In this document: piece by piece, positions 4,209 to 20,769 of the stretch
Layout of the letters: each line of letters starts with the position of its first letter
Numbering within the stretch: the first letter of the stretch is position 1
From: a virus
Strand: one strand, 5' to 3'
DNA: 20,769 nucleotides
Virus record (IMG/VR): IMGVR_UViG_3300028364_000180
Coordinates: 1-20,769 of that record
Notes under the pieces: generated by a model
Seen by the model: the letters and a program-made list of their open reading frames with translations, nothing else
Told to the model about the DNA's origin: nothing
The model's database searches: none
Program-made: the position numbers and the translations under genes

Positions 4209-5795
4209 ATGCCGAAGCTAACCGCTGAAGATATCTGCCAACGCGCAGGTAATATGTTCAAGTCACAGAGTGTGGCTGTATCGCTATGGCAGACACTCGC
4301 AGATAACTTCTACCCAGAGAGGGCGGACTTCCTGTTGACCAGAAACATGACGGGGCTGGAGATGGCCAACAACACGGTTGACTCCTTTCCTATCTTGGCC
4401 CGCAGAGACCTAGGCAACTCGTTCCACGCTATGTTGCGGGACGCGAGATGGTTTGAAATCACAGCTGGAGCCGACACAGAGGCTGACCGAGAGGGCAAAC
4501 TGTGGCTAGAGTGGGCGACCAATCGCCAGTACAAAATCATGCAAGACAGATCCTCTAACTTTGAGCGAGCTGTCAAGATAGGCGACCACGACTTTGCCAC
4601 GTTCGGCAACGCGGTACTATCCCTCGAACCAAACAAAACTAGAACAGGTGTGATCTACAGGCCTTGGCACCTACGCGATTGCGCGTGGGAAGAGAACGAG
4701 TCTGGCCAGGTGGAGACAGTCGTCCGTAAATGGGACCCGACCCTGCACCAACTTGTGCGAATTTTTGGCGAAAAGGCGTTAACTCCGGCTCTCCGAGAGA
4801 AATACAACAAGAATCCTTTCTGTACTACCCGTGTGTACCACATGACGATTCCGTCCGACTTGTCGGGTGACGAGGAAATGACTCGGTATAAGAACTGCTC
4901 ATACTTCGTTCTCGAAAGTGAGAAGACGATGCTCGAGTACAAAGGCATAAATTACGCTTACTACATCGTCCCCAGATTCCAAACGATTGCCGGATCCCCT
5001 TACGGGTACAGCCCAGCCACGATGGCTGCTCTACCTGACGCGAGGACATTGCAGTCTATGACGTTCACACTTCTCGAAGCGGGTGAGCGGTATGCCAGAC
5101 CTCCGATGGTGGCGACGTCTAAAGTGATCACCGGCGTGGTGGATCTATCCCCTAACGGTATAACCTGGGTGGACAACGAATATGACGAGAGACTGGGGCA
5201 AGCCCTAAGATCCCTTGACCAGAACAAAGGCGGCTACCCGATTGGGGCGGCTGAGCGGAACAGGGTATACGAGACTCTGCAGAAGTCCTTTTATCTAGAC
5301 ACTTTGAGTCTGCCTCTGGGCGACAAAGAGATGACTGCGTACGAAGTACAAGAGCGAATGAAGCAGTACAGACGCACTAACTTGCCATTGTTCGCCCCTA
5401 TGGAGCGAGACTATAACGGCCAGATATGCGAAGCCACGTTTGATCTGATGTTGATGATGGGCCAGTTAGGATCCCCACAAGACATACCCAAGTCACTTGG
5501 AACAGACGTAGAATTTAAATACGTGTCCCCACTCACGAGCGATGAAGAAGAAGAAAAGATGAATCAGTTTGCTAGGATCCGGCAGGAACTTGCCGAGGCC
5601 GCGCAGCTGGACGCAGGAGTACTAGACAACTTTGACTTTGATGAGGCCATACGTGACTCCATCCAAGGTGTGGACGCCCCAGTGAACTGGACGCGGCCGT
5701 ACGACGAAGTCACTCAAGTACGAGAAGCTAGACTCGCACAGCAAGCTGCGGCAGCAGCGGCCGAGATGGGGGCACCACAACAAGGTGCCGCATGA
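4209..5795 (+). CDS. Portal / head-to-tail connecting protein
   Basis: The protein is 528 residues. It matches the podovirus head-tail connector family (T7 gp8-like, Pfam Head-tail_con): a helical start, then 'LADNFYPERADFL' (residues about 29-41), the early conserved 'DSFPILARRDLGNSFHAMLRD', the 'PWHLRDCAWEENESGQVETVVRKW' beta-wing segment, 'GSPYGYSPATMAALPDARTLQ' near the middle, and a helical C-terminus ending in a poly-Ala tail. Portals form a dodecameric ring at one capsid vertex; DNA passes through it during packaging and ejection, and it nucleates procapsid assembly. Length is normal. About 16 of 37 arginines use AGA or AGG, unlike the capsid gene. The stop overlaps the next start (ATGA). 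Confidence 0.95.
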   Translation: MPKLTAEDICQRAGNMFKSQSVAVSLWQTLADNFYPERADFLLTRNMTGLEMANNTVDSFPILARRDLGNSFHAMLRDARWFEITAGADTEADREGKLWLEWATNRQYKIMQDRSSNFERAVKIGDHDFATFGNAVLSLEPNKTRTGVIYRPWHLRDCAWEENESGQVETVVRKWDPTLHQLVRIFGEKALTPALREKYNKNPFCTTRVYHMTIPSDLSGDEEMTRYKNCSYFVLESEKTMLEYKGINYAYYIVPRFQTIAGSPYGYSPATMAALPDARTLQSMTFTLLEAGERYARPPMVATSKVITGVVDLSPNGITWVDNEYDERLGQALRSLDQNKGGYPIGAAERNRVYETLQKSFYLDTLSLPLGDKEMTAYEVQERMKQYRRTNLPLFAPMERDYNGQICEATFDLMLMMGQLGSPQDIPKSLGTDVEFKYVSPLTSDEEEEKMNQFARIRQELAEAAQLDAGVLDNFDFDEAIRDSIQGVDAPVNWTRPYDEVTQVREARLAQQAAAAAAEMGAPQQGAA

Positions 5796-6079
5796 ATTTA
5801 GAAACCGAATGTTTTAAAGTCGAGAGCCTGTCAGCGCAAGAGATCATTGCCTTTCAGTCCCTCGAAACCGGAGAGGCGGATGCCCACCAGCAGCGTCTGG
5901 CGCTGTCTGTTCTCCTAAAGAAAATGTGCAGAACGTACGACACCCACTTCCTCCCAGGCCAGCCCGACGGATCAGCGTTCTTGAGTGGCCGAGGGTTCGT
6001 AGGGCAGCAGGTGTTGAAGTGCATGAGACTGGACCCCAGGGCCCTTAAACAACTAAGAGAGGAAGAAGAAAATGGCTGA
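5792..6079 (+). CDS. Bbp19-like small phage protein
   Basis: The protein is 95 residues. The core (residues about 36-85: 'LLKKMCRTYDTHFLPG...SAFLSGRGFVGQQVLKCMRLDP') has the 'C..F....... F..GRR.VG..ll' layout of the small Bbp19-type proteins found between connector and scaffold or capsid genes. The assignment rests on pattern, not on a search. It starts in the portal stop (ATGA) and its end overlaps the scaffold start by 8 nt. Function is unknown; an assembly role is suggested only by position. Confidence 0.65.
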   Translation: MNLETECFKVESLSAQEIIAFQSLETGEADAHQQRLALSVLLKKMCRTYDTHFLPGQPDGSAFLSGRGFVGQQVLKCMRLDPRALKQLREEEENG

Positions 6080-6959
6080 TGAAATAACCCCACCAAGTAC
6101 ACCAGCAGAAGAGACTCCACCAACAGACCAGCCAGCGGGTGGCACTCCCCCAACGGACCAGCCAGCGGAGTCGTGGTTCCAAACACTCCCTGAGACGTGG
6201 CGCGAAGATCTAGCCGGTGAAGACGAAGGCCGTCTTAACCAGCTTAAACGTGTGCCCGACCTACCCACATTCGCTAAGAATTATTTTGAAGCGCAGGATT
6301 CTCTGCGCACCAGACAAGAGTCGGCAGGTCTCCCAGAGAATCCCACCGACGAGCAGCTGGCCGAGTACCGAACTAAAATCGGTGTCCCTGAGACAGCGGA
6401 CAAGTATGAGCTGGGCGAAGGACTGGTCCTAAGCGACGAGGACAGGAAAGAACTTGCTCCGGTCTTTGAGATCATGCACGCGAATAACATCCCACACTCT
6501 GCAGCTGCGGACCTTGTGGACACCTACACCAAGCTCGAGAACCAGCGGACAGAGCGGATGGCCAGCCAAGATGTGCTCGACTCTCAGGCTGCGATCAAGC
6601 AGCTCAAGGAGCAATGGGGGCCGGACTACGAGACGAACCGCAGCATCACTGTGGCCAACCTAGCCGCTCACCTCCCAGAGGAAGCGATGGAAAGTTTCAT
6701 GGGTGCCAGACTAGCCAATGGTAAAGCTCTATTCAACGACCCAGGCGTGGTCGAAGCATTCGCTCAGATGGCTAGGGTCATCAACCCAGCTGCCACACTG
6801 GTTCCGTCTGGATCCAACCCTGTCCAGTCGCTAGAGGCTCGTCAAGCTGAGCTCACTGATAAGATGGGCACCCCTGAGTGGTACAAAGACAAGGCCGCTC
6901 AGAAAGAGTTCTTGGACAACGAGACAGCCCTAGAGCAGTTAAGGTCTAGACAGAAGTAA
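6072..6959 (+). CDS. Scaffolding protein
   Basis: The protein is 295 residues, very acidic and highly polar, with a Pro/Thr-rich disordered start that includes a duplicated segment (PPTDQPAGG then PPTDQPAES, residues about 18-35). The rest is helical and rich in Glu, Gln, Lys and Ala, including the 'P.tAdkYel' type segment at 'GVPETADKYELGEG' that is common in podovirus scaffolds, and a charged C-terminal helix (LEQLRSRQK) of the kind that contacts the coat protein. Scaffolds template the procapsid and leave before packaging completes. It lies directly before the major capsid gene, the standard position. A ribosome site (AGAGGAAG) lies about 10 nt before the ATG. Confidence 0.9.
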   Translation: MADEITPPSTPAEETPPTDQPAGGTPPTDQPAESWFQTLPETWREDLAGEDEGRLNQLKRVPDLPTFAKNYFEAQDSLRTRQESAGLPENPTDEQLAEYRTKIGVPETADKYELGEGLVLSDEDRKELAPVFEIMHANNIPHSAAADLVDTYTKLENQRTERMASQDVLDSQAAIKQLKEQWGPDYETNRSITVANLAAHLPEEAMESFMGARLANGKALFNDPGVVEAFAQMARVINPAATLVPSGSNPVQSLEARQAELTDKMGTPEWYKDKAAQKEFLDNETALEQLRSRQK

Positions 6960-7144: not shown

Positions 7145-7975
7145 ATGCCTGATACAGCTTTTCAAACCATGTATCGCCAGGAGATGATCCAAGGATTCGA
7201 GAAGCGCCAGTCGCTTGTCCGTAAGACCACTGTCACTAGCGCCGATATCAACGGCAATCAGGCAGTATTCCTTGTAGCAGACTCTGGTGGTGCAACAGCA
7301 GTAAGCCGAGGCGTAGACGGAGACCTTCCAACACGTCCGGATAACCTGAACCAGTACACCGCAACCTTGCAAGAATGGCATGATGTTCCTGAGCGCACGC
7401 GCTTCAACATCTATGCGTCTCAAGGTGACGGCCGTAGACTCATGCAAGAGACTTGTATGAATGTCATCAATCGTAAGATCGATGAAGACATCCACAACGC
7501 TCTTGGACTAGCGACTGTTACTTGGGGCACAGCAGCTCCGGCTACTATCCCGCTAATATCTAAAGCTAAGACCAAGTTAGGCAATGCCTTCGCTGATATG
7601 GACGCGCCAATGTATGCGCTGATTACTCCAGCGTTCCATGCGTACTTGATGTCTTTCCCTCAGTTCACTTCCGCTGATTACGTCCAGATGCCTGGTTGGG
7701 ACAGTGTCCCTAAAGACAAGGCGTTCAGCTGGTATGGCGTGAACTGGATCGTGGATCCCGCACTTCCAGGAGCTGGAACTAATAGCGCGACTTGCTTCAT
7801 GTACTCCATGAACGCAATCGGTCACGCATGCGACACGACCAACCTAAACACGGCAGTAGGCTACGATGACAAGAACGACAAGTCATGGGCCCGTTGCTCA
7901 ACATTCATGGGCAGCAAGCTGCTACAGAACAGTGGTGTAGTGAAAATGCTACATGACGATTCTGCGTTCTCATAA
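7145..7975 (+). CDS. Major capsid protein
   Basis: The protein is 276 residues, on the short side for an HK97-fold podovirus coat protein. It begins 'MPDTAFQTMYRQEMIQGFEKRQSLVRKTT', the typical N-terminal arm, followed by 'GNQAVFLVADSGGATAVSRGVDGDLP', a central helix 'ETCMNVINRKIDEDIHNAL' (the spine helix), 'YALITPAFHAYLMSFPQFTSADYV' and a C-terminal beta-rich domain. This matches the phage capsid family seen in non-enterobacterial T7-like phages. The ribosome site AGGAG (7132-7136) is well spaced. Arginine codons are almost all CGN (10 of 11), which contrasts with neighbouring genes and suggests selection for high expression. Its own promoter and leader lie upstream, and a terminator lies after the next gene. 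Confidence 0.93.
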   Translation: MPDTAFQTMYRQEMIQGFEKRQSLVRKTTVTSADINGNQAVFLVADSGGATAVSRGVDGDLPTRPDNLNQYTATLQEWHDVPERTRFNIYASQGDGRRLMQETCMNVINRKIDEDIHNALGLATVTWGTAAPATIPLISKAKTKLGNAFADMDAPMYALITPAFHAYLMSFPQFTSADYVQMPGWDSVPKDKAFSWYGVNWIVDPALPGAGTNSATCFMYSMNAIGHACDTTNLNTAVGYDDKNDKSWARCSTFMGSKLLQNSGVVKMLHDDSAFS

Positions 7976-9116: not shown

Positions 9117-11474
9117 ATGGCCGCCTCCAAGCTACTGATATACAACAACGCTCTCCAAATACTAGGCGAGCGAAGGTTATCAAACCCTACGGAGGATCGA
9201 GAACCTCGGTACGTGCTCGACCAGGCGTACGAGCTCGACCTTGTGGAGCACTGCTTGGAGGTGGCTAAACCTAGATTCTCCGTGAATAGTGCCAAGCTGG
9301 CCAGTCCAGCAGCCAGCACCGTCCACGGCCTAGACAGCGTGTATAGCCTTCCGTCAGACTACATCTCCACCCTCGGGGAAGCAGGTCTGCACGGCTCTAA
9401 TGGGTCTTTCTTCTCTGACGAAGATTTCCAGAACCCAGTAGACCGATACATCATCGAGAACCGGACAGTCGCCACTGATGTGGCAACGAACCTCTGGATC
9501 CGGTACATCTCAAAATCCCGACCGCTCTCTTCTTGGACGCCTACGTTCGCCAGACTTGTTTCGGCGTACTTAGCCAGAGAGACCGCCAGTCGGTTAAACC
9601 CTAGCCGGATCGAGATAGCTGAGGCCGCGTATCAATCTGCGCTGGCCAAGTGCATCGAGCTTGAGGGCGTCAAAGAAAATGACGTGATTCCTCAGGCACC
9701 GGCCGCGAGCTTGTCGGCGGACCAGCTGACAATCTACAATCAGGCTGCCGCAGCGTTAGGCCGACCTGAGTTTAGAAGCGTGAACAACGGGTCCAGCCTA
9801 CGACTGGCAATGGATTCGATCTATACCATCGCGGTCGAAGCCAGCTTGGAAGAGGTCAAGCCTCGGTTTGCGGTCCTTAGTGCGAGGCTAGGGACGCCAG
9901 CTACCAGCTCAGTCCACGGTTTAGACAGCGTGTATACGCTTCCCTCCGACTATTTATCCACTCTGGGTGACCAAGGCGTGCACGGGGCCAACGGTTCTTT
10001 CTTCTCTGACGAAGATTTCCAGAACCCAGTAGACCGATACGTCATAGAAGCCCGAACGGTGGCGACAGATATCCCAACTAATTTGTGGATCCGGTATATA
10101 TCCAACGATGTGGCTGAGTCCGTTTGGACCCCATCATTCCGAGAAGTAGTATCTCTGCGTATCGCGCTGCTTATTGCTAAGCGGTTCTCCCCAGAAGGAG
10201 AGGCCGGCATAGCCGAGATGGTTACCGTTGCGACAGAGAAGTCTATCCAACGTGAAGGCATTAAAGAGAATGCACCTCTGCCGCAGGCACCGGCCGCAAG
10301 CCTGTCAGCCGAGCAGCTGCAGATATACAACTCCGCAGCAGCTATGCTGGCCCAGCCAGAGTTTAGGCACGGGGACGATGGATCCGCACTTAGGCTGGCA
10401 ATGGATTCAGTGTACGCACTGGCCGAGGATGACCTTCTCGAGACCATCAAACCGAAGTTTGCCACTCGGGTCGTATCTCTAACCGGCGGCAGCCCTTCGG
10501 CTATCCACGGGTACGACAATGTGTTCGACCTGCCCGCGGATTTTAAGAACATCTGCGAGCTGTGGTCAGACGAGAACCTAGAAGTTCCTATCACTCGGTA
10601 CTTTCTAGAAGATGACAAGATCGCTATCGACGGCTACGCCACCGCGTATATCCGGTACATCATCGGAACGACTGCTGAGTCCGCGTGGTCCCCGTTATTT
10701 AAGAAAGCCATGTCGGCCTACATCGCCAACGAGCTGGCGTATCGGTACGTCGAGAGGCTTCCTGCCCAAAACATAGCTGAGGCTCTTAAAGAGCGCGTGG
10801 GACTGGCGGTCCAAGTAGATGGCGCTAAAGAACCATCGATGCGACCAATATCCGGCACACGGACACTGGACGACACCTACCGAGCTTTGTACAACAAGGC
10901 CCTGCAGATGCTGAGGCTTCCCCAGTTGGTGTCCAACACTGACGAATCTGAGCGCAAAGTTGCTCTGGATTACGCCCTTGACAACAAGGCCGTGGAGACC
11001 GTGTTCGAGCTGATATCTTGGGGGTTCTTGTACAAGACCGCGGAACTGGCACCAGATGGAGCCGAGACCCCGACAGTGGGGTTCGATTACTCGTACGCTG
11101 TGCCAGCCGATATGATTCGCATCGACAAGTTGTCTGCTGATGAGTACTTCCGATACCCAGTCAACTACGCGAGAGAGGGCGGGTACTTCGAGACTGACGC
11201 CACAACTCTGTACATCCGGTATCTATCAAACGAGCAAACGACAACGCCGAGTACTTGGCCCACTTACATTTACAACCTAGTGGCAGCTGAGCTGGCCAGA
11301 GCTTGTGCGCACCTCCCGAACGCAGATATGAAGAATGCCGAGTTTAAGTACCAAGAATACAAAGGAGAGGCGTTCAGCACCGATGCCCAGCGCAACCCAC
11401 CTCAAGTCATTGCCGAGGGGAGCTGGACAAGGGCCAGAAGCACGTGGCCGACCAGACGATATCAGAGGCCATAG
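9117..11474 (+). CDS. Tail adaptor: four fused copies of tail tubular protein A
   Basis: The protein is 785 residues, whereas the normal tail tubular protein A (T7 gp11-like adaptor that joins portal to nozzle) is about 200. Four homologous units lie in a row. Each opens with an '.IYN.A...L' helix (Tyr at 9, 207, 404 and 592), then 'LE.VKPRFA...A.L', then 'S.VHGLDSVY.LPSDY' or its variant, then an 'NPVDRY.IE..TVATD..TNLWIRYIS' strand, then 'W.P.F...VS..IA...A.R'. Units 1 and 2 are most alike and share an exact 45-nt DNA match. Units 2 and 3 follow the same linker (PQAPAASLSADQL or PQAPAASLSAEQL). Unit 4 is the most different and carries the C-terminal tail. Nothing is frameshifted or broken. 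The chain is assigned to the connector by family and by position directly before the nozzle. Confidence 0.9.
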   Translation: MAASKLLIYNNALQILGERRLSNPTEDREPRYVLDQAYELDLVEHCLEVAKPRFSVNSAKLASPAASTVHGLDSVYSLPSDYISTLGEAGLHGSNGSFFSDEDFQNPVDRYIIENRTVATDVATNLWIRYISKSRPLSSWTPTFARLVSAYLARETASRLNPSRIEIAEAAYQSALAKCIELEGVKENDVIPQAPAASLSADQLTIYNQAAAALGRPEFRSVNNGSSLRLAMDSIYTIAVEASLEEVKPRFAVLSARLGTPATSSVHGLDSVYTLPSDYLSTLGDQGVHGANGSFFSDEDFQNPVDRYVIEARTVATDIPTNLWIRYISNDVAESVWTPSFREVVSLRIALLIAKRFSPEGEAGIAEMVTVATEKSIQREGIKENAPLPQAPAASLSAEQLQIYNSAAAMLAQPEFRHGDDGSALRLAMDSVYALAEDDLLETIKPKFATRVVSLTGGSPSAIHGYDNVFDLPADFKNICELWSDENLEVPITRYFLEDDKIAIDGYATAYIRYIIGTTAESAWSPLFKKAMSAYIANELAYRYVERLPAQNIAEALKERVGLAVQVDGAKEPSMRPISGTRTLDDTYRALYNKALQMLRLPQLVSNTDESERKVALDYALDNKAVETVFELISWGFLYKTAELAPDGAETPTVGFDYSYAVPADMIRIDKLSADEYFRYPVNYAREGGYFETDATTLYIRYLSNEQTTTPSTWPTYIYNLVAAELARACAHLPNADMKNAEFKYQEYKGEAFSTDAQRNPPQVIAEGSWTRARSTWPTRRYQRP
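9132..9725 (+). repeat. Adaptor unit 1 of 4
   Basis: Residues about 6-203 of the adaptor. The '.IYN' helix starts at Tyr9. It shares 'HGLDSVYSLPSDYISTL' and 'FFSDEDFQNPVDRYIIE' with unit 2. Confidence 0.85.
9405..10040 (+). repeat. Exact 45-nt direct repeat inside the adaptor gene (9405-9449 and 9996-10040)
   Basis: The two 45-nt stretches are identical, spaced 591 nt (197 codons) apart and in the same frame, while flanking codons for equal or similar residues have drifted. This points to a recent duplication or gene conversion limited to this loop. Confidence 0.9.
9726..10316 (+). repeat. Adaptor unit 2 of 4
   Basis: Residues about 204-400. It is closest to unit 1 in the middle and closest to unit 3 at its start (SADQLTIYNQAAAALG against SAEQLQIYNSAAAMLA), which suggests stepwise duplication or exchange between units. 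Confidence 0.85.
10317..10880 (+). repeat. Adaptor unit 3 of 4
   Basis: Residues about 401-588. It keeps 'IHGYDNVFDLPADF' and 'ITRYFLEDDKIAIDG' in place of the unit 1/2 versions and lacks the 'HGSNGSFFSDEDF' loop, so it is shorter there. Confidence 0.8.
10881..11474 (+). repeat. Adaptor unit 4 of 4
   Basis: Residues about 589-785. It is the most diverged unit but keeps 'ALYNKALQML', 'YSYAVPADMIRIDKL', 'RYPVNY', 'LYIRYLS' and 'VAAELARACAHL'. It ends in a charged, flexible tail (SWTRARSTWPTRRYQRP). Confidence 0.8.
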
Positions 11475-11477
11475 AGA

Positions 11478-14400
11478 ATGAGCCGCACCTATACTAATAA
11501 ATTCAACCGTGGTGAAGTCGATGAAGGCGTCATGGCCCGCGACGACATCGAGCGCGTAAACAACTCTGCGACTCTGGTGGACAACTGGATGCCTGCCCGT
11601 GTTGGTACGATGCGCACTCGGCCTGGGACCGAGTTCTTGGGCACAGCCAAAGTGAACGGAGCGCACTTCTTAATGCCATTCGTAGATGATGGCACGGTCC
11701 CTACGATCCTAGAGTTCTCTCAGTCCACAGCTAATCCAAGTGTGGAGTCTGTCCGGTTCTGGATCAATGGGATATTAGCTCAGGTGACAGCCACGACGGA
11801 CACTATCACCAACGGTGCTTTTGCCTCAAACATAACCGGCTGGACCGATGCGTCAACTGGATCCGGAGCGGAAGGAATAGCTCACGAGCCAACCACCCAG
11901 AGGATGCTTATTCAGGGCGGGCCAGGTGATGGGGACTGGGGAAGAGCCTATCAGACCCTTACCTGCTCAGCAGGCGAGAGGACACTAAGGATAGAAGTAT
12001 CCGAGTCCCCCATACTTTGCCAGCTCGGCACAGGCGGAGCCCTTACGTCGGACATATTCGAGGGGTACTTAGGGTTTGGGGTGCACCTCCTCACTTGGAC
12101 TTCTGACGGATCCGACACCACTCTCACTCTTTCTAACTTCGCGGGGTACGCCGCGTTTGTAGACAACATCGCGTATGACGGGGTGGGTGAGTTAACTCTT
12201 ACCGGCAATATGGCCACAGATACTACAACCACCGCGATCACCTTAGACACCTTGCGGTACACCCAGATCAACGACGTGATGTTCATAGTCGACGGTGGGT
12301 ACGAGATAAACGGGTTCAGCTGGCCCTTCTGGATTATAAAAAGACTAGGGCAGAAGTCCTGGTCCTTTGAGCTGCCAGATATAACAGATGGGCCATTCGG
12401 CAATATCAATGTGACCTCCACTACTCTGGCGCCGTCAGCTGTGAATGGGAACATCACACTGACTGCCAGCTCCGCCATATTTGACACTACTAAATCAGTG
12501 CTGAAAACATACCAGCTGCTACACGGGGATGTTTATGGGAAGGCGCAAGTCATGTCCGTGGTCTCTCCGACGGTGGCTAATGCCCGAGTGCTTGAGTCTT
12601 TCGGTGGGACCGGTGCAGTCAAAGAGTGGTGGGAAGGATTATTCGCGCCGTACCTACCATCCCCTACAGCTGTTGAGGTGTACGAAGGCCGGCTCTGGCT
12701 GGCTGGTGGAGCTAGGCTGTACGGATCTGTCTCAGACCTTTACACGTCGTTTGATGAGCTCCTAGAGGGCAACTCCGCCTCTATTATTAAGACCATAGGC
12801 TTTGGGCCTGTTCAAGACGTAGCGTGGCTCCTAGGCGGCGACGTGCTGCTGTTGGGCCTTAGCTCAGAAGAGGTGCAGGTGAAGTCCAATGGTGATTTCA
12901 ACCCGCTGAACGCAAACAACGCGAACGTCAAGCGAGGAACCAACAAGGGGTCCGCTGAGGTCCGTCCGGCTGTCGTGGATCAGATTGTTTATTTTGTTAA
13001 CCGCAGCCTGCTTAAACTATTTGCACTCAGCGGCCTGAAGGGTGAGCAGATATCTGCTAACGACACTACAATCCTACACCCAGACATCTGCGCCCCAGGC
13101 ATAAAGAAGTTAATCTACTCGAGCGAGCCAGAGCCGAGGATGTACTGCTTGCTGACTAACGGTGAGCTACGAGTCCTACTGTTTGATAATGTTGAAGATG
13201 TGACCGCGTGGTCTAGGATAACCCTAGGCGGGGGCGGGACCGTGGAGGATATAACATCAGCTCCGACTGCTGCTGAGGATGAGATATATATGGTGGTGGA
13301 GCGGGACGGCGTCCGGTACATAGAGCGCCTCGCTAAGTTTTCTCAAAGCCGCGGAGAGACCGACTCTAGGCACTACGACTCACACGTGTACAAACGCTCC
13401 CCTGGGGGGACTTTCGACGGTCTAGACCACCTAGAGGGGCTGGACGTCTACGTCTGGGCCGATGGGGTGGAGAAAGGAGCCGCAACAGTTTCGAGCGGCC
13501 AGATCACATTAGCTTCATCCGGATGGACCGATGTCGTGGTGGGGCTTCGCCCGACTGCCACATGGACCAGCAACAGGCTGAGCCGGTATGTAGAAAAAAC
13601 GGTCCTCAATTACCGCAAGCGGGTAGTCCAGATAGGGCTAGTCATGCGGTCCGTCGCGCTTAGGAATTTACTGTACGGGTCAGACGTGAACCGGCTGCAA
13701 CCGATGCCAGACATCGACGAGGGCCGACCAAGGGCACCTACCACTGAGCCAGAGCCTACTATCGTGGGGAGTCTCACGGGTGGTTTAACGATCAATGGCA
13801 TGGAGCAGTACGACGGGCCAGGTTCTTACCTTCTCTGCGCCACCAATTCGACCGCGTTCACCGACGAGTCTCGCCGGCAACAAGCTGCAGTGAACGTGGG
13901 CGGGCCAATATCCAGCGGCGGCGTGAACTGGGTAGTGGGCGGCAACACCGACTCGAACGGTAATATGCAAAATTTAATTCAAGTGAATCCCAGCGTCGCA
14001 TCGGTCACTGCTTTTGACTTCGACGACATGCCAGGGGGCGGTGCGGGGTACCCCTCGCTGGCATACGACAACGTGGTTGATGAGTACCTGTACGCCTACA
14101 CCAACCTCACTCCTAACTTCACCAGGTATGACATCGGCGCGGGGACTTGGTCTACCTTAGCCAATGCCCCTACTACCGGTATTTTCAAGTCCGACATACA
14201 AACCTATAACGGTAAAGTTTACCTGTACGGGGCTCAGCAAAGCACGAGCACAGGAGGGTTCTATGTGTACGATATCGCCACGGACACGTGGTCCACGTTA
14301 ACTCCCGTATCACCCCCTACGCTCAAGCGTTCCCCGACAACGGCACTGCCGAAGACTGGCGCCGGCGCAGGTAAATTTTACATGTTAGAGGGAGCGGACA

Positions 14401-15905
14401 TGGTTACTAACCAAGTCATCCTGTCATTCTTTGAGTATAACATCGGGACTAACACGTGGAGCGCGTTAAGCACTGCGGGGCTATCCCGAAGCGCACTCCG
14501 GAGCATGGTGGCACCTGGTAATGGGAAGCTGTACACATTTGGGGGGACGGTACCCCACTTCGGGTTTTTCCCACAGCGGACGCTCAACGAGTACGACATC
14601 GCTACCAACACGTGGTCAACGCTGACGGACCTATCTGACTACACCGACACCACAGTTCCATTCAACAGGTCGGAGTCAGCGGTCTGGACAGACGGCGAGA
14701 GTATTTTTGTAAAGACAGGATCTCTCGATCAGACGACTGGAGTATCCCCAGCTCCACCGTTCGCGGTCAAAGACCTGTGGGTGTACGACATCGCAGGGGA
14801 CACATGGACCCAGACCAACGAGGCCGACAACGAGATATCATCGGGAGGAGGGCCGGCTCAGATTATAGACGTGACCTCCCCTAGCGCGATGTTCGTCGCG
14901 GGTTCCACCGCTCTCCTCGCGACAGGAACATCCGGAGACCATCTCTTCTCATACCGGTGCAAGCAGGACAGCTCGTTCGCTTTTTTCCTCACTAGGACCA
15001 GCACAGTGGCTACGGTGAAGAGGGGCATCGCGGCAGTGGATATCACTGACATCACCTCACCTGTGCAGGTGGACTACCTAGAGGGCGCCAGTGCTGGCAT
15101 ACCCGACGTGCCCGTACCAAGAGGGATGTGGATAGACTCCCCTTTTCTATACACGGTCGGGCACGCCCTCGCAGGCTCTGTGTCCGCTATAAACATCAGC
15201 GACCCCGCGTCACTGGCGGTCGAGTCCAGCTTGGCGCTAGTGACAACAGGTGACCCTGTGGCGCCAGAGATGATTGGGTCAAGAGGGCAGTACTTGTATA
15301 TCGCGTGGGAAGAGCGGGTCCATATCGTGGACAAGAGCAACCCAGCTGATATGGATGTTACTGTCTTCGGGACTGGGCTAGGTGCGGCCGAGTACTGCCT
15401 TGTGGACGGATCCAACATGTTTGTTCTGGATCCCACTGCAGGGACTTTGAATATCTACAGTCTAGCGGACGACGCCTTGGTTCCGACACTTCTCGGGTCA
15501 GTCACTGCGACAAAGCTGCAGGGAATGAGGGACATGTCTGCGTATGCGCCGTACTTGTGGTTCGCGGGTGGCACAACAGGGTGCGTTGTTTCGTACACCT
15601 CTATCGATACACCAACAGTCCTTGCGGAGTACACTGGGTTTGCGGGCCTTCAGGCGATTCGGACTTTCTCGGCCAACCAAGTGTTCGCCGGATCTAATAC
15701 TGATCCAGATGGTTTTCTATATGTCGCTGACCAAAGGTCGTGGCAGCTGGTAGACTATGATGAAATGTCATTTGAGTTTGATGGGACGTACGACACGGAC
15801 TCGCGGGTGACGGTGCAAACAACTGGGCCAGCCACAATGCTGGCAATAACATACGAGGTAGAGGACATTGATGATCCGACCGATGGAAGCGGAAGACCTA
15901 ACTAA
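11478..15905 (+). CDS. Tail nozzle (tail tubular protein B-like) with carbohydrate-binding-like and double beta-propeller inserts
   Basis: The protein is 1475 residues, about twice the usual nozzle. The start is typical: 'NKFNRGEVDEGVMARDDIER' then 'NWMPARVGTMRTRPGTEFLG' (residues 8-55). Residues about 108-236 form an extra beta-sandwich ('ITNGAFASNITGWTDAS...'). The nozzle body continues to about 755 ('AVEVYEGRLWLAGGARLYGS', 'LGLSSEEVQVKSNGDFNPLN', 'YGSDVNRLQPMPDIDEGRPR'). Residues about 756-1425 are a foreign block: five Kelch repeats with 'YDIxxxTW' at 884, 931, 987, 1039 and 1103, then LVIVD-type blades ('IIDVTSPSAMFVAG', 'AINISDPASLAVES', 'HIVDKSNPADMDV'). The conserved C-terminal nozzle strand resumes at 1426 ('DYDEMSFEFDGTYDTDSRVT'). 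It follows the adaptor by 3 nt. Confidence 0.88.
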   Translation: MSRTYTNKFNRGEVDEGVMARDDIERVNNSATLVDNWMPARVGTMRTRPGTEFLGTAKVNGAHFLMPFVDDGTVPTILEFSQSTANPSVESVRFWINGILAQVTATTDTITNGAFASNITGWTDASTGSGAEGIAHEPTTQRMLIQGGPGDGDWGRAYQTLTCSAGERTLRIEVSESPILCQLGTGGALTSDIFEGYLGFGVHLLTWTSDGSDTTLTLSNFAGYAAFVDNIAYDGVGELTLTGNMATDTTTTAITLDTLRYTQINDVMFIVDGGYEINGFSWPFWIIKRLGQKSWSFELPDITDGPFGNINVTSTTLAPSAVNGNITLTASSAIFDTTKSVLKTYQLLHGDVYGKAQVMSVVSPTVANARVLESFGGTGAVKEWWEGLFAPYLPSPTAVEVYEGRLWLAGGARLYGSVSDLYTSFDELLEGNSASIIKTIGFGPVQDVAWLLGGDVLLLGLSSEEVQVKSNGDFNPLNANNANVKRGTNKGSAEVRPAVVDQIVYFVNRSLLKLFALSGLKGEQISANDTTILHPDICAPGIKKLIYSSEPEPRMYCLLTNGELRVLLFDNVEDVTAWSRITLGGGGTVEDITSAPTAAEDEIYMVVERDGVRYIERLAKFSQSRGETDSRHYDSHVYKRSPGGTFDGLDHLEGLDVYVWADGVEKGAATVSSGQITLASSGWTDVVVGLRPTATWTSNRLSRYVEKTVLNYRKRVVQIGLVMRSVALRNLLYGSDVNRLQPMPDIDEGRPRAPTTEPEPTIVGSLTGGLTINGMEQYDGPGSYLLCATNSTAFTDESRRQQAAVNVGGPISSGGVNWVVGGNTDSNGNMQNLIQVNPSVASVTAFDFDDMPGGGAGYPSLAYDNVVDEYLYAYTNLTPNFTRYDIGAGTWSTLANAPTTGIFKSDIQTYNGKVYLYGAQQSTSTGGFYVYDIATDTWSTLTPVSPPTLKRSPTTALPKTGAGAGKFYMLEGADMVTNQVILSFFEYNIGTNTWSALSTAGLSRSALRSMVAPGNGKLYTFGGTVPHFGFFPQRTLNEYDIATNTWSTLTDLSDYTDTTVPFNRSESAVWTDGESIFVKTGSLDQTTGVSPAPPFAVKDLWVYDIAGDTWTQTNEADNEISSGGGPAQIIDVTSPSAMFVAGSTALLATGTSGDHLFSYRCKQDSSFAFFLTRTSTVATVKRGIAAVDITDITSPVQVDYLEGASAGIPDVPVPRGMWIDSPFLYTVGHALAGSVSAINISDPASLAVESSLALVTTGDPVAPEMIGSRGQYLYIAWEERVHIVDKSNPADMDVTVFGTGLGAAEYCLVDGSNMFVLDPTAGTLNIYSLADDALVPTLLGSVTATKLQGMRDMSAYAPYLWFAGGTTGCVVSYTSIDTPTVLAEYTGFAGLQAIRTFSANQVFAGSNTDPDGFLYVADQRSWQLVDYDEMSFEFDGTYDTDSRVTVQTTGPATMLAITYEVEDIDDPTDGSGRPN
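11800..12186 (+). other. Carbohydrate-binding-like insert in the nozzle
   Basis: Residues about 108-236 read as a jelly-roll of the carbohydrate-binding type: 'NGAFASNITGWTD' is the usual first strand pair, 'GRAYQTLTCSAGERTLRIEVSES' the next, and 'TLTLSNFAGYAAFVDNIAYDG' the closing strand with the 'A.VDNI' signature. Sugar binding is inferred from the fold only. Confidence 0.6.
13921..14820 (+). other. Kelch-type beta-propeller within the nozzle
   Basis: Residues about 815-1114. Five 'Y-D/N-I-x-x-x-T-W' blade ends at 884, 931, 987, 1039 and 1103, each after a 'GK.Y..GG' type strand (for example 'NGKVYLYGA', 'GKFYMLEGA', 'GKLYTFGGT'). Spacing is 47-64 residues, normal for Kelch. Confidence 0.82.
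14856..15752 (+). other. LVIVD-type second beta-propeller within the nozzle
   Basis: Residues about 1127-1425. Blades repeat a 'I..VDITDITSPV' / 'INISDPASLAV' / 'VHIVDKSNPADMDV' motif, as in the LVIVD repeat family of beta-propellers. The last blade ends in 'GFLYVADQRSWQLVDYD' and joins the nozzle C-terminus. Confidence 0.7.
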
Positions 15906-16233
15906 CCTGGATCTCAATTCGTTTGGTAAAAGCATTAGAGCTGTGGTCGCCGAAGTGGGAGGCAAGGCAGTGGCGGTAGCGGGGGTAATTCACACGAGTC
16001 CCCCGTATGCGTTCGCCAACCTTACTCCAGCCATGCGGGACCACCCGAGAGACATCATGCGAGTGATTAAATCTTTCGACGCATTCTTGCAGCAGCACTA
16101 CGAAGTGGTGTACGCCGTGGCCGACCCAGAAGAGAATAATGCGCCCAGAGTGTTGCGCAAGATAGGTTTCGAGTACTATATGACAACTATTCAAGGGGAC
16201 ATCTACCGATGGCAACAGCAGCCATACCATTAG
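15871..16233 (+). CDS. GNAT-fold protein (internal virion protein A-like)
   Basis: The protein is 120 residues. It has the layout of an acetyltransferase of the GNAT type: strands 'IRAVVAEVGGKAVAVAGVIHTS', a long helix 'RDIMRVIKSFDAFLQQHY', then 'VVYAVADPEENNAPRVLRKIGFEYY', which is the classical 'N..a.r...k.GF' end. The acetyl-CoA loop (Q/RxxGxG) is not clear, so activity is uncertain. Similar proteins sit between nozzle and internal virion genes in T7-like phages, in the place of T7 gp13. The ATG at 15871 is used in preference to a TTG at 15868. It overlaps the nozzle gene by 35 nt and the next gene by 25 nt. Confidence 0.78.
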   Translation: MIRPMEAEDLTNLDLNSFGKSIRAVVAEVGGKAVAVAGVIHTSPPYAFANLTPAMRDHPRDIMRVIKSFDAFLQQHYEVVYAVADPEENNAPRVLRKIGFEYYMTTIQGDIYRWQQQPYH

Positions 16234-16784: not shown

Positions 16785-18388
16785 TGCCTCAATTACCTAG
16801 AGCTACCGACATAAACCGGACTGTGGTCAACGACCAGCAGAGCATTGCTGTTGTCGATGATCGAGCCATAGGCCGAGGCATGCAGGAGGTCGGGGCCACT
16901 GTGGGTGCTATCGGGGCTGATATAAAAGACCGCCGGACTAAGTACGAAATGTCCCAGGCCAGAGCTGAGTTTCTAACAGCCAAAGCCAAAGAGGACAATG
17001 CTTACGACGGTGACGAAGACTACGCTTCGATGGGCGAACGGTACTCCAACAATTTGGGGACCAGCCTTACCGAAGCCGCATCGATGATAACGGATCCTAT
17101 GGCCCGTCAGATGTTTGAAGACGAGGCCAGAGTGACGTTCACTCAGGGCCAAGAGCGCATCTCTAACTTCGCCAGAACAGTGGAGCGAGACTACCAGCGC
17201 GGGTACGTCTCAGAACGACTGGACAGCATTCGGGAGGCCGGCCTGACTGGCAGCCTGATAGATGCGCAGAACGCCGCCAACGATCTCATAGACAGCTCAG
17301 TGGGGATGGACTGGCTAGATTCTGAGGAAGCTGAGCGCCTGAAAATATCATGGCGCAACGATGCGGCCACAGCAAAGCTGGAGATGATGCCACCTGAGCA
17401 GCGTGTGGACGCGCTCAACGAGGATTGGGCTAAATTCCTACCCAGCGATGCTAGAGCTAAAATACTACGAGTGGCGGAGGAGCAGACTCTGCAAGGTAAA
17501 GCTGTGCGCAACGTACAGTCCCTCGACGGCATGTCGCCTGAGGAGGGCTGGGATTGGATACAAAAGAACGTGACCGACCCGCAGGAGATGATCGCTACCG
17601 AGTCTAGGTTCGAGGTTAAGATGGCCAGAGACAAGAAAATAGTGGATGCCCAGCAAGAGGAGTACCACCAGACCTACTTCAACGGCATCCGGCTAGATGG
17701 CGGCTCCGTGCAAGACATCCCACCCGACATTCTTAAGCAGATGGATCCCAGTATTGTTAACAACATGAAAGAGGCGGAGCGCAACTACGCTCTCGATCAG
17801 AACCCTAAGACACCTAGGCTGGTGGAAGAGAACCTGCAGTGGCTGTACGCAAACTCCACTCCTCGGGAGCTTAGGCGATACTTTCATGAGATATCGTCTC
17901 AGTTAAGTGACGAGGACTTTGGTATGTGGAACCAGTCGTCACTGGAGTCCAACGACGCGCTAGAGAATGACCCCATATTTACAGGCACTCAAATGATTCA
18001 AGATAAGGTACGGGAAGTGACTATGGGAGATAACGACCCTGAACTATTGTCGCAGTACCGGCGCAAGTTTGAGCGGTATGTCTATGACTTCAGGGCCATC
18101 AACGGGAGAGACCCGACCGGCCCCGAACAAGGTGACGCTATCAACGAGATATTCTTGTTCGTCCCGACTAAAGAGAAAATAATCGGCACGGAACCTAAAG
18201 CATTTAAACTGTGGGATAGCATGAGCCCAACCGAACAGGGGGAAGCTCGAAGCTACCTGCAGAGCATAGATCCACCAGCGTACGAGAAAGCCGAGTCCGA
18301 AGCTAGGGCGAATGGGCGAGGTATGGATGGGAGGTATATTGTTGAGCTGTTCTCTGAGTACTCAGATGCCGAGGATTTCACACCCTAA
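16784..18388 (+). CDS. Internal virion protein C-like (T7 gp15-type)
   Basis: The protein is 534 residues, mostly helical and charged, with no signal peptide. It begins 'MPQLPRATDINRTVV', typical of internal core proteins. A long helical region follows ('IGADIKDRRTKYEMSQARAEFLTAKAKED'). A motif-poor middle contains 'TERDYQRGY'-type repeats (here 'TVERDYQRGYVSERLDSIREAGLTGS'). T7 gp15 homologues form the periplasmic channel for DNA ejection; this protein is somewhat shorter. GGAGG (16771-16775) provides a ribosome site and the start overlaps the previous stop (TAATG). The last base of its own TAA is the first of the next ATG. Confidence 0.82.
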   Translation: MPQLPRATDINRTVVNDQQSIAVVDDRAIGRGMQEVGATVGAIGADIKDRRTKYEMSQARAEFLTAKAKEDNAYDGDEDYASMGERYSNNLGTSLTEAASMITDPMARQMFEDEARVTFTQGQERISNFARTVERDYQRGYVSERLDSIREAGLTGSLIDAQNAANDLIDSSVGMDWLDSEEAERLKISWRNDAATAKLEMMPPEQRVDALNEDWAKFLPSDARAKILRVAEEQTLQGKAVRNVQSLDGMSPEEGWDWIQKNVTDPQEMIATESRFEVKMARDKKIVDAQQEEYHQTYFNGIRLDGGSVQDIPPDILKQMDPSIVNNMKEAERNYALDQNPKTPRLVEENLQWLYANSTPRELRRYFHEISSQLSDEDFGMWNQSSLESNDALENDPIFTGTQMIQDKVREVTMGDNDPELLSQYRRKFERYVYDFRAINGRDPTGPEQGDAINEIFLFVPTKEKIIGTEPKAFKLWDSMSPTEQGEARSYLQSIDPPAYEKAESEARANGRGMDGRYIVELFSEYSDAEDFTP

Positions 18389-20769
18389 TGCCATTAACTC
18401 CAGAAGAACGGGCCGAAGCCAGAAAGTGGAAAGACGAGCGCAGAAAGCGGCAGCTCACCACGTCGATAGGTCTCGCGTCACAACCTGGCGTGGACCCTTC
18501 CGCAGCTAGAAAAGCCCAGCAGGTCCAATACGAGACCGGCATTCCTGCGTCTGTTGCAGAAACAGATATCGACAGGGCCCAGTCCCTAGCGACCACACCA
18601 AGCCCTAACCCCGTGGCCGACTTGGCTGACACTCCGGCTGTTGCTGAGTGGATGTCGGATCCTGCTCAGGCTCGTATGTCTATTGATGACATGGAGCAGA
18701 TGAAGGCCTTTGAGAGAGCTCAGAGGCGCAAGGAGGGCTACTGGAAGAACGTAGGCCTCGGCATGGGCGAGCGTACGAACAGCCTGACTGGTAACCTCAT
18801 TCAGTTTGCGTCGCACTCCATCGACGGTTATGAACAAATAATAGAGACCCTAGGGCTAGCCGAGCGGGACAGCTTAAACTTTTCCGATAAAGTCAGAGGA
18901 GTTGGCACGGCTATCGCTGAAGGTGGGCTGGGGTATGAGAGCCAGTACAACTGGGAAGACTTCAAAGACGAGCCGACCGTGGCAAACCTGGCCGGATACG
19001 TGATGGAGACAGGCGCAATGTCGATGGTGGACATCGGCGGCATGATGTTATCCCTGCCTCTCTACTTAGCCAGCAAGTCCAACGAGACAGGTAATGCCAT
19101 AGCGGAGCGGGATGGGAGAGACTCAGCCTCGGCCGCGGACGTAATTAGAGGTATGCCAACAGCTGTGGCCGTCACCTTGATAGACCGGTGGTCTGCTAAG
19201 GGGGCCCTCGGGCTGATGACTAAAGGCAAGGTGGGGAAACTCACTTGGGGCCACGCCGGTAGAGAGATAGGTAAAGCAACGGCCCGAGAGGGTGCAACGG
19301 AATTTCTACAAGAGCAAGTCGAATACATCGGCGAGACCATGGGCACCAAGTACGCCTACAGCACTCCTAACCGCGTCAAGCTGTTAGAGCAGCTGGATAG
19401 AGGTGCGGCAGGCATGGTGGCCGGTGGCCCAATGGGTGCAGCCATGAGAGGCGCGTCGCTCCCACTGGATGCGGTTAGCTACTCGATCCAGCAGCGCATG
19501 AGCGACGACATAAAAACTGTGGGTGAGCAGCAGTCTCTCGACGGCATGATATATTCCATTCAGAACATGAAGCTGAACCAAGAGGCCCCAGATGTGGCCC
19601 GCGGTTTCTTCAAAGGCATGGACCCAAACGATAAAGTGTACCTGACCCCAGAGGCAGTACGGGCTGCGGTAGACGAAGGGTTCACTATCCCCGACTACCT
19701 CCAGGCTCAACTCGATGCCGGCACAGATGTGTCGCTGAGCGTTGAAGACTTTGCGATGGATGTTGTGAGCGACTCAAACCTAACTGAGCGCCTTCGGCCC
19801 CACATGAAGCGGAGCCCCGACGCCCAAACCCAGAGCGAGATACAGAACCGAGACACCACCCGCATCGAACGGCTAATGAACCTGGCCAAGACCGAGACTG
19901 CAACTAAGACTGAGGCCGACGAAATCCACGAGGAAGTCGCGGCCCAGCTGGTGGCGTCAGGTCGGCTCTCTGCGGCGTCCGCTAAGATATCAGCAGCAAT
20001 AATCCCCGCCTACGTGACCAGCACTGTGGCGGACCTGCGCGGTCGAGGCCAAGACGTCACGGTTCGTGAAGTCTACGACCTAATGAACTTTAAAGTGGAG
20101 CCGGCCAAGAACGCGAAGCCCCCTGCTAAACCCTACGTGCCACCACCCGAGATAGAGAACGCGGCTGAAATTGGGCCCCAGACCGACACCACGGTTGAGA
20201 TTGTGGAGGATGGCGCACAGGAAGAGATGGCAGATCCGGCTGTCGAGGCCCCAATCGAAGAGGGCCAAGCAGCCCCAGAAGTTGAGGCTGCTCCGGAACC
20301 AACACCAGAGCCAGTCGCTGAGATGACGGCGGACACACTGAGGTCTCAGATCACTGATGCTGTGCCAGCGGCAGACCGCAAGAAAGTGCAAAACTTTGTT
20401 AAGCGCAGGCTGGACAAAGGGACTCCGGTCGCTGAGATAATGGACCAGGTCAATGCCCAGTACGGGTTATCGCTGTCGGCACCGGAGCAAGAAGCGCCGA
20501 GGGTGACGGACGAAGCTATTGCAGCCGCAATAACTGAGGCCGGTGTGGTGTCTGCGGATGCTACACCTGAGCAGATCGAGTCAATTTCGGTTAAGCCCAA
20601 GACCTCTAAGAAAGTCCGGATCCAGCACGCTAACCCTCGTATCGACATGTACTTTAAAGAGGTCACCCAGCGCATACCGGAGCTCACCGAGGCCGCTAAG
20701 AAAGTGGAGTCTGGCGAGATGACGACAGCTGAGTACTCCAGGTTGGTGAACGAATATAAGCCCGTGACG
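18388..20769 (+). CDS. Large internal / polyvalent virion protein, 5' part (runs off the window)
   Basis: At least 794 residues with no stop before the window edge. It is T7 gp16-like by position, the third internal virion gene. Residues about 45-110 ('ETGIPASVAETDIDRAQSL...NPVADLADTPAVAEWMSDPAQARMSIDDMEQM') match the start typical of very large phage virion and polyvalent proteins. Residues about 200-230 ('LAGYVMETGAMSMVDIGGMMLSLPLYLA') and about 339-356 ('GAAGMVAGGPMGAAMRG') are membrane-active. 'EGATEFLQEQVEYIGETMG' (residues about 297-315) is another family hallmark. A Pro/Glu/Ala-rich linker (about 572-650) leads to a final segment 'RIPELTEAAKKVESGEMTTA' then 'EYSRLVNEYKPV', which in related proteins precedes further enzymatic domains. 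Transglycosylase or other enzymatic domains are not visible yet. Confidence 0.88.
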   Translation, partial: MPLTPEERAEARKWKDERRKRQLTTSIGLASQPGVDPSAARKAQQVQYETGIPASVAETDIDRAQSLATTPSPNPVADLADTPAVAEWMSDPAQARMSIDDMEQMKAFERAQRRKEGYWKNVGLGMGERTNSLTGNLIQFASHSIDGYEQIIETLGLAERDSLNFSDKVRGVGTAIAEGGLGYESQYNWEDFKDEPTVANLAGYVMETGAMSMVDIGGMMLSLPLYLASKSNETGNAIAERDGRDSASAADVIRGMPTAVAVTLIDRWSAKGALGLMTKGKVGKLTWGHAGREIGKATAREGATEFLQEQVEYIGETMGTKYAYSTPNRVKLLEQLDRGAAGMVAGGPMGAAMRGASLPLDAVSYSIQQRMSDDIKTVGEQQSLDGMIYSIQNMKLNQEAPDVARGFFKGMDPNDKVYLTPEAVRAAVDEGFTIPDYLQAQLDAGTDVSLSVEDFAMDVVSDSNLTERLRPHMKRSPDAQTQSEIQNRDTTRIERLMNLAKTETATKTEADEIHEEVAAQLVASGRLSAASAKISAAIIPAYVTSTVADLRGRGQDVTVREVYDLMNFKVEPAKNAKPPAKPYVPPPEIENAAEIGPQTDTTVEIVEDGAQEEMADPAVEAPIEEGQAAPEVEAAPEPTPEPVAEMTADTLRSQITDAVPAADRKKVQNFVKRRLDKGTPVAEIMDQVNAQYGLSLSAPEQEAPRVTDEAIAAAITEAGVVSADATPEQIESISVKPKTSKKVRIQHANPRIDMYFKEVTQRIPELTEAAKKVESGEMTTAEYSRLVNEYKPVT

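Follow-up and report, generated by a model that had tools for sequence, protein, structure and literature searches.

Introduction

A single adaptor ring has been reported for podoviruses other than phicrAss001, which is the exception with its separate ring genes (PMC10172136). The tail barrel of phicrAss001 consists of five stacked rings, each proposed to be dodecameric, which are built by four paralogous proteins, and the ring at its muzzle (nozzle) end binds via residues 15-26, in two conformations. The contacts of single-unit adaptors have also been mapped. The nozzle touches the adaptor at the alpha1-alpha2 loop, through E26, D35 and D39 in T7 and through E19, E20 and N24 in P-SCSP1u. On the other side, in the solved phages, among them P-SCSP1u, the portal is contacted by the embracing helix and by the alpha4 end, among other sites. 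In addition, tandem duplication of a tail module is known from the T5 tail tube protein, in which it leads to pseudo-hexameric rings of trimers (PMC9022992).

Could several adaptor units, then, be carried by one protein chain? In the open-licence papers searched, no description of concatenated adaptors was found. Here, we analyse a stretch of viral DNA of 20,769 nucleotides (positions 1 to 20,769 of IMG/VR record IMGVR_UViG_3300028364_000180), called the window below, in which one gene encodes an adaptor of four units.

Four adaptor units in one chain

The gene and the parts of its product are listed below. The units are classed as first (N), middle (M) or last (C) in a multi-unit chain, or as the unit of a single-unit chain (S).

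9117..11474, plus strand: gene for a concatenated tail adaptor with four units and 785 aa (ORF; four phrog_394 matches; four units in the AlphaFold model)
9117..9707, plus strand: unit 1, first (N) type, residues 1-197 (unit HMM; class tables)
9162..9200, plus strand: alpha1-alpha2 loop of unit 1, residues 16-28, putatively nozzle-facing (AlphaFold helices; T7 and P-SCSP1u contacts)
9666..9716, plus strand: linker 1, residues 184-200, 17 residues from the end of alpha4 to the next alpha1 (AlphaFold helices)
9711..10298, plus strand: unit 2, middle (M) type, residues 199-394 (unit HMM; codon-window comparison)
9844..10105, plus strand: stretch of unit 2 like unit 1 (9253-9514), 74.8% DNA identity (blastn of units; codon windows)
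10257..10307, plus strand: linker 2, residues 381-397 (AlphaFold helices; junction lengths)
10302..10862, plus strand: unit 3, middle (M) type, residues 396-582 (unit HMM; unit tree; motif counts)
10821..10871, plus strand: linker 3, residues 569-585 (AlphaFold helices; junction lengths)
10866..11438, plus strand: unit 4, last (C) type, residues 584-774 (unit HMM; class tables)
11382..11471, plus strand: C-terminal arm (DAQRNPPQVIAEGSWTRAR...), residues 756-785, after the last unit only (tail motif counts)

The 785-aa product, with a mass of 87.0 kDa, consists of four homologous adaptor units of the gp11/tail tubular protein A family in series. The profile phrog_394, a single-unit tail protein of 190 positions, gave four separate matches in the ORF (E=1.5e-78), and the unit boundaries obtained with the unit HMM are close to the unit starts given in the initial annotation, which had proposed four fused copies of this domain. 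The copies are diverged, as it had also stated, with a pairwise identity of 24-54%, and each of the six unit pairs far outscored 500 shuffles (z = 16 to 93). The AlphaFold model of the chain, built with 40 relatives (mean pLDDT 85.7), contains four confident copies of one fold, alpha1-alpha2-beta-alpha3-alpha4, which is a helical bundle with an inserted beta domain. Based on this model, Foldseek matched the solved adaptors of LME-1 (9efk), Carin1 (8ck1), PhiM1 (8vb4), KP32 (TTPA, 5mu4) and T7 (gp11, 6r21), all of which are single units of ~200 residues, with TMt of 0.46-0.76. The whole protein had no matches in a PDB sequence search, and a unit profile was needed to reach 8ck1_E (4e-25) and 9efk_T (2e-17); the latter, the LME-1 adaptor, is present as 12 chains, relatives being known to form a dodecameric ring on the portal. 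The family named in the initial annotation is therefore the right one, and the counter-possibility that it raised, one true adaptor unit followed by unrelated domains, is ruled out, because all four stretches match phrog_394 and share the fold. An assembly artefact is ruled out as well, since the units are diverged and an identical protein is encoded by two other IMG/VR contigs, 3300028361_000234 and 3300012031_000058, whose DNA is ~99.9% identical to the window across 12-14 kb.

Gene neighbourhood

The genes that accompany the adaptor gene are as follows.

4209..5795, plus strand: portal (PF12236 head-to-tail connector), single copy (domain match)
7145-7975: major capsid, neighbour of the adaptor gene
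11478..15905, plus strand: nozzle (phrog_376) with a C-terminal Kelch propeller region (PHROG/domain match)

Portal, capsid and nozzle together form the gene set of the T7/BPP-1-type short tail, and the order of capsid gene, adaptor and nozzle is that of Burkholderia phage BcepC6B, whose adaptor is single-unit. A scan of the window with the unit HMM found no second adaptor ORF, all four units being in the single ORF.

Some other features of the window were also recorded. The nozzle protein has 1475 aa, with the Kelch beta-propeller region at residues ~880-1142; the nozzle of most relatives is ~880 aa long, and those of L042 (1609 aa) and L076 (1222 aa) are long too. A small ORF at 15868-16233 weakly matches phrog_308, an internal virion protein (E=5e-5), and at its place a GNAT acetyltransferase is annotated in the relative MW202898. 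The large ORF with an LPD22 domain at 18388-20769, which runs off the contig end, probably encodes an internal or ejected virion protein. Near the contig start, at 70-205, there are short G+C-rich tandem arrays with units of 22, 17 and 10 bases. They are read from the window alone, as contig 3300012031_000058 is identical to the window from position 271 on and ends there.

Relatives with one to five units

Relatives were gathered from viral contigs with adaptor queries (the window chain and L018), portal alignments and then an alignment of three-unit adaptors, and units were counted in every ORF of the gathered contigs. The homologues of two, three or four units that the initial annotation had suggested looking for were all found, together with a chain of five: the distinct complete chains with one, two, three, four and five units number 57, 32, 10, 3 and 1, respectively, where the tallies depend on seeds and contig ends and are not abundances, the 57 include a paralogue from L231 that is short and divergent, and the 32 include L213, an independent partial duplication. 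A few further chains are interrupted by contig ends. The relatives sit in syntenic podoviruses, and unit number differs even among close relatives. For example, L003, the nearest three-unit relative, is syntenic and contrasts with the four units of the window, while L073 has three units and L076 has two. The complete five-unit chain occurs in one contig only (L018); it has 960 aa and is matched by phrog_394 in five stretches, and the identity between the two units that are most alike is 64%. In L015, the contig end falls inside the fourth unit, and because this unit is of the middle type, the chain probably has five or more units.

With the window, two-unit and three-unit queries, no multi-unit adaptor was found in 50,697 records of named phages, and a genome collection search yielded one relative, a two-unit chain in a Glaciecola MAG (L243), which suggests Glaciecola as a host. 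Two BFVD models, A0A516L4P3 (583 aa) and A0A516M5L4 (1139 aa), each aligned to the window model over ~790 columns with Foldseek, and by this comparison of models they are likely the same kind of chain. The family phrog_9239 (741 positions) was tried as a multi-unit adaptor and rejected, since only its first ~190 positions match, as far as seen.

Three relatives depart from the common layout. L231 has two separate adaptor-like genes (14885-15409 and 17550-18188), a normal single unit and, upstream of it, a short and very diverged paralogue of 174 aa. The L213 gene (14744-15823, 359 aa) arose by independent duplication within the single-unit group, and its second unit is without the first helix and loop, while W-x-F is present in both units. 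The two-unit ORF of L050 (13023-14546) has ~109 extra residues ahead of the first unit, which are either an extra domain or the result of a start called too early.

How could such chains be arranged in the tail? The initial annotation had proposed a trimer of pseudo-tetramers, in which three chains of four units give one ring of twelve. Extended to the relatives, a single ring would take 12/n chains, with six of two units or four of three. The numbers 1, 2, 3 and 4 all divide 12, lateral neighbours could equally be joined by a linker of 17 residues, and the T5 tail tube protein, with trimers in pseudo-hexameric rings (PMC9022992), is a precedent. Such lateral fusion does occur in phage tails, and therefore the idea was reasonable. 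However, a rule that the unit number divides 12, which holds for the four units of the window, is broken by the complete five-unit chain of L018, which cannot tile twelve, and L015 probably breaks it too. In addition, most units of a single ring would be without the nozzle loop and portal arm of the single-unit type. Since the position code described below also fits stacked rings better, the trimer is not supported, and we regard a single ring as unlikely.

Position-specific features of the units

The motif counts, which come from related sequences and hence are not independent events or trials, with L213 left out, are distributed among the N, M, C and S units as follows: DxS in the alpha1-alpha2 loop in 0/43, 19/19, 33/37 and 1/60; W-x-F at the end of alpha2 in 0/43, 0/19, 37/37 and 58/60; and the C-terminal arm (tail motif) in 1/43, 0/19, 36/37 and 53/60. 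With the patterns fixed beforehand, 24 units from later loci were then tested, and 23 of them fit. On the side against a stack, fusion would in any model remove the C-terminal arm where two units are joined. In the window, unit 1 has an alpha1-alpha2 loop of the single-unit type, KPRF in place of W-x-F, and is without the arm, while W-x-F and the arm are present in unit 4, like in single-unit adaptors.

The same division is seen when segments are compared. In the first 44 columns S units are closer to N units (45%) than to C units (28%), but in columns 45-125 they are closer to C (34-36%) than to N (23-26%), as they are in the tail (28% versus 11.5%); alpha3 shows no difference. Within multi-unit chains, the S-type alpha1-alpha2 loop is kept in the first unit only, W-x-F and the C-terminal arm, both on the portal side, are kept in the last unit only, and the middle units combine a loop of the last-unit type with a top of the first-unit type. 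DxS-like loops occur in two basal single-unit adaptors, BcepC6B (DEDS) and L006 (SDDS), and therefore such a loop can also meet the nozzle. Based on the contacts mapped in T7 and P-SCSP1u, what single-unit relatives have at the nozzle appears to be kept in the first unit, and what they have at the portal in the last unit, while the two inner faces are carried by middle units, as a line of rings between portal and nozzle would require. The loop of unit 1 would face the nozzle, because the nozzle contacts of both phages fall in that loop region, and the C-terminal arm would be the counterpart of the portal-embracing segment.

In the unit tree, the C units of all chains but L213 cluster, adjoining the S units, and the N and M units form a separate group (SH-aLRT 97). 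Repeated independent origins of middle units, which a quick tree suggested, are not forced by a careful tree, and one origin is allowed. From such a tree, it could be argued that twelve chains are present and that the last unit alone forms the adaptor ring, with the first and middle units as decorations on its exterior, such as additional docks for fibres. The last unit is indeed most like the single-unit adaptors, and the first and middle units are on a long branch (0.89). However, the single-unit type of nozzle loop is kept in first units, and the pairing found in middle units, a bottom of the last type and a top of the first type, is what successive contacts would select. Consequently, this arrangement is rather improbable.

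A probable stack of rings

The linker from alpha4 to the next alpha1 has 17 residues in 49 of the 55 junctions (range 15-20), and the arrangement between units is not fixed by the AlphaFold models (pTM 0.42 for the four-unit chain and 0.57 for a two-unit chain). The window chain might also be a polyprotein, from which cleavage would release individual ring proteins that then assemble in the manner of phicrAss001. The gene at 6072-6959 has a weak protease match (phrog_458, E=4e-7) next to a stronger one to a family of unknown function. However, cleavage would not need a linker of nearly fixed length and no cleavage site is shown, so that we consider a polyprotein very improbable.

The window protein is probably a single-chain, multi-ring tail barrel, in which twelve chains form n stacked rings from portal to nozzle. 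An axial stack is favoured over a single ring because the position code splits nozzle-side features, in the first unit, from portal-side features, in the last, with hybrid middle units. The open unit number (one to five), which varies among close relatives, the nearly fixed linker length and the five-ring precedent of the same fold in phicrAss001 also support the stack. Under the portal, twelve 785-residue chains would assemble with the N-terminus at the nozzle and the C-terminus at the portal, each unit position making its own dodecameric ring, which would give four stacked rings. The last unit would dock on the portal through its ancestral top and the C-terminal arm, and the first unit on the hexameric nozzle through its alpha1-alpha2 loop. 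The middle units would act as spacers, with a bottom of the last-unit type and a top of the first-unit type, and each linker would climb the side of the next ring, like the embracing arm on the portal in single-unit phages. Each added middle unit would then lengthen the tail by one ring. Twelve copies of the long chain, which the initial annotation had named beforehand as refuting its trimer, are what we infer rather than observe.

How could the chain grow? Unit 2 is a mosaic, in which codons 1-45 are like unit 3 and codons 46-135 are like unit 1 in DNA, with 64-84% identity to unit 1 per 15-codon window and 90% at the linker end. The stretch at 9844..10105 looks like a trace of recent exchange or duplication. 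If a first unit recombines within alpha2 with a middle or last unit, the product may be a middle unit with both right faces at once, and unequal exchange that creates middle units with matching faces could make the unit number grow. For the relatives as a whole, the balance tips somewhat towards an uncultivated podovirus family with a variable-length barrel of twelve chains and n rings, whose length is set by unit number and which has grown by unequal exchange. If so, the series from one to five units would provide tail tubes of graded length in nature, it would allow the adaptation between portal and nozzle by rings to be tested cleanly, and it would show a ring module gaining position-specific faces after duplication.

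Comparison with known systems

T7 gp11/TTPA and the other phrog_394 adaptors share with the window chain the unit fold, the place before the nozzle gene and the companion portal and nozzle. However, their known members have one unit of ~200 residues per chain, while the window chain has four, which are position-specialised. T5 pb6 is also a ring-forming tail module duplicated in tandem within one chain, but it has another fold, two units and lateral pseudo-symmetry. The rings R1-R5 of phicrAss001 are formed by paralogues of the adaptor fold that are specialised by place, as the several units of the window chain are, and the window model matches the phicrAss001 structure in Foldseek (7qoi_FS, E=2e-4). 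The difference is that phicrAss001 uses four separate genes and the window one covalent chain, for which stacking is proposed. If the stack is correct, the barrel of the window would be the one-chain counterpart of the separate-gene barrel of phicrAss001.
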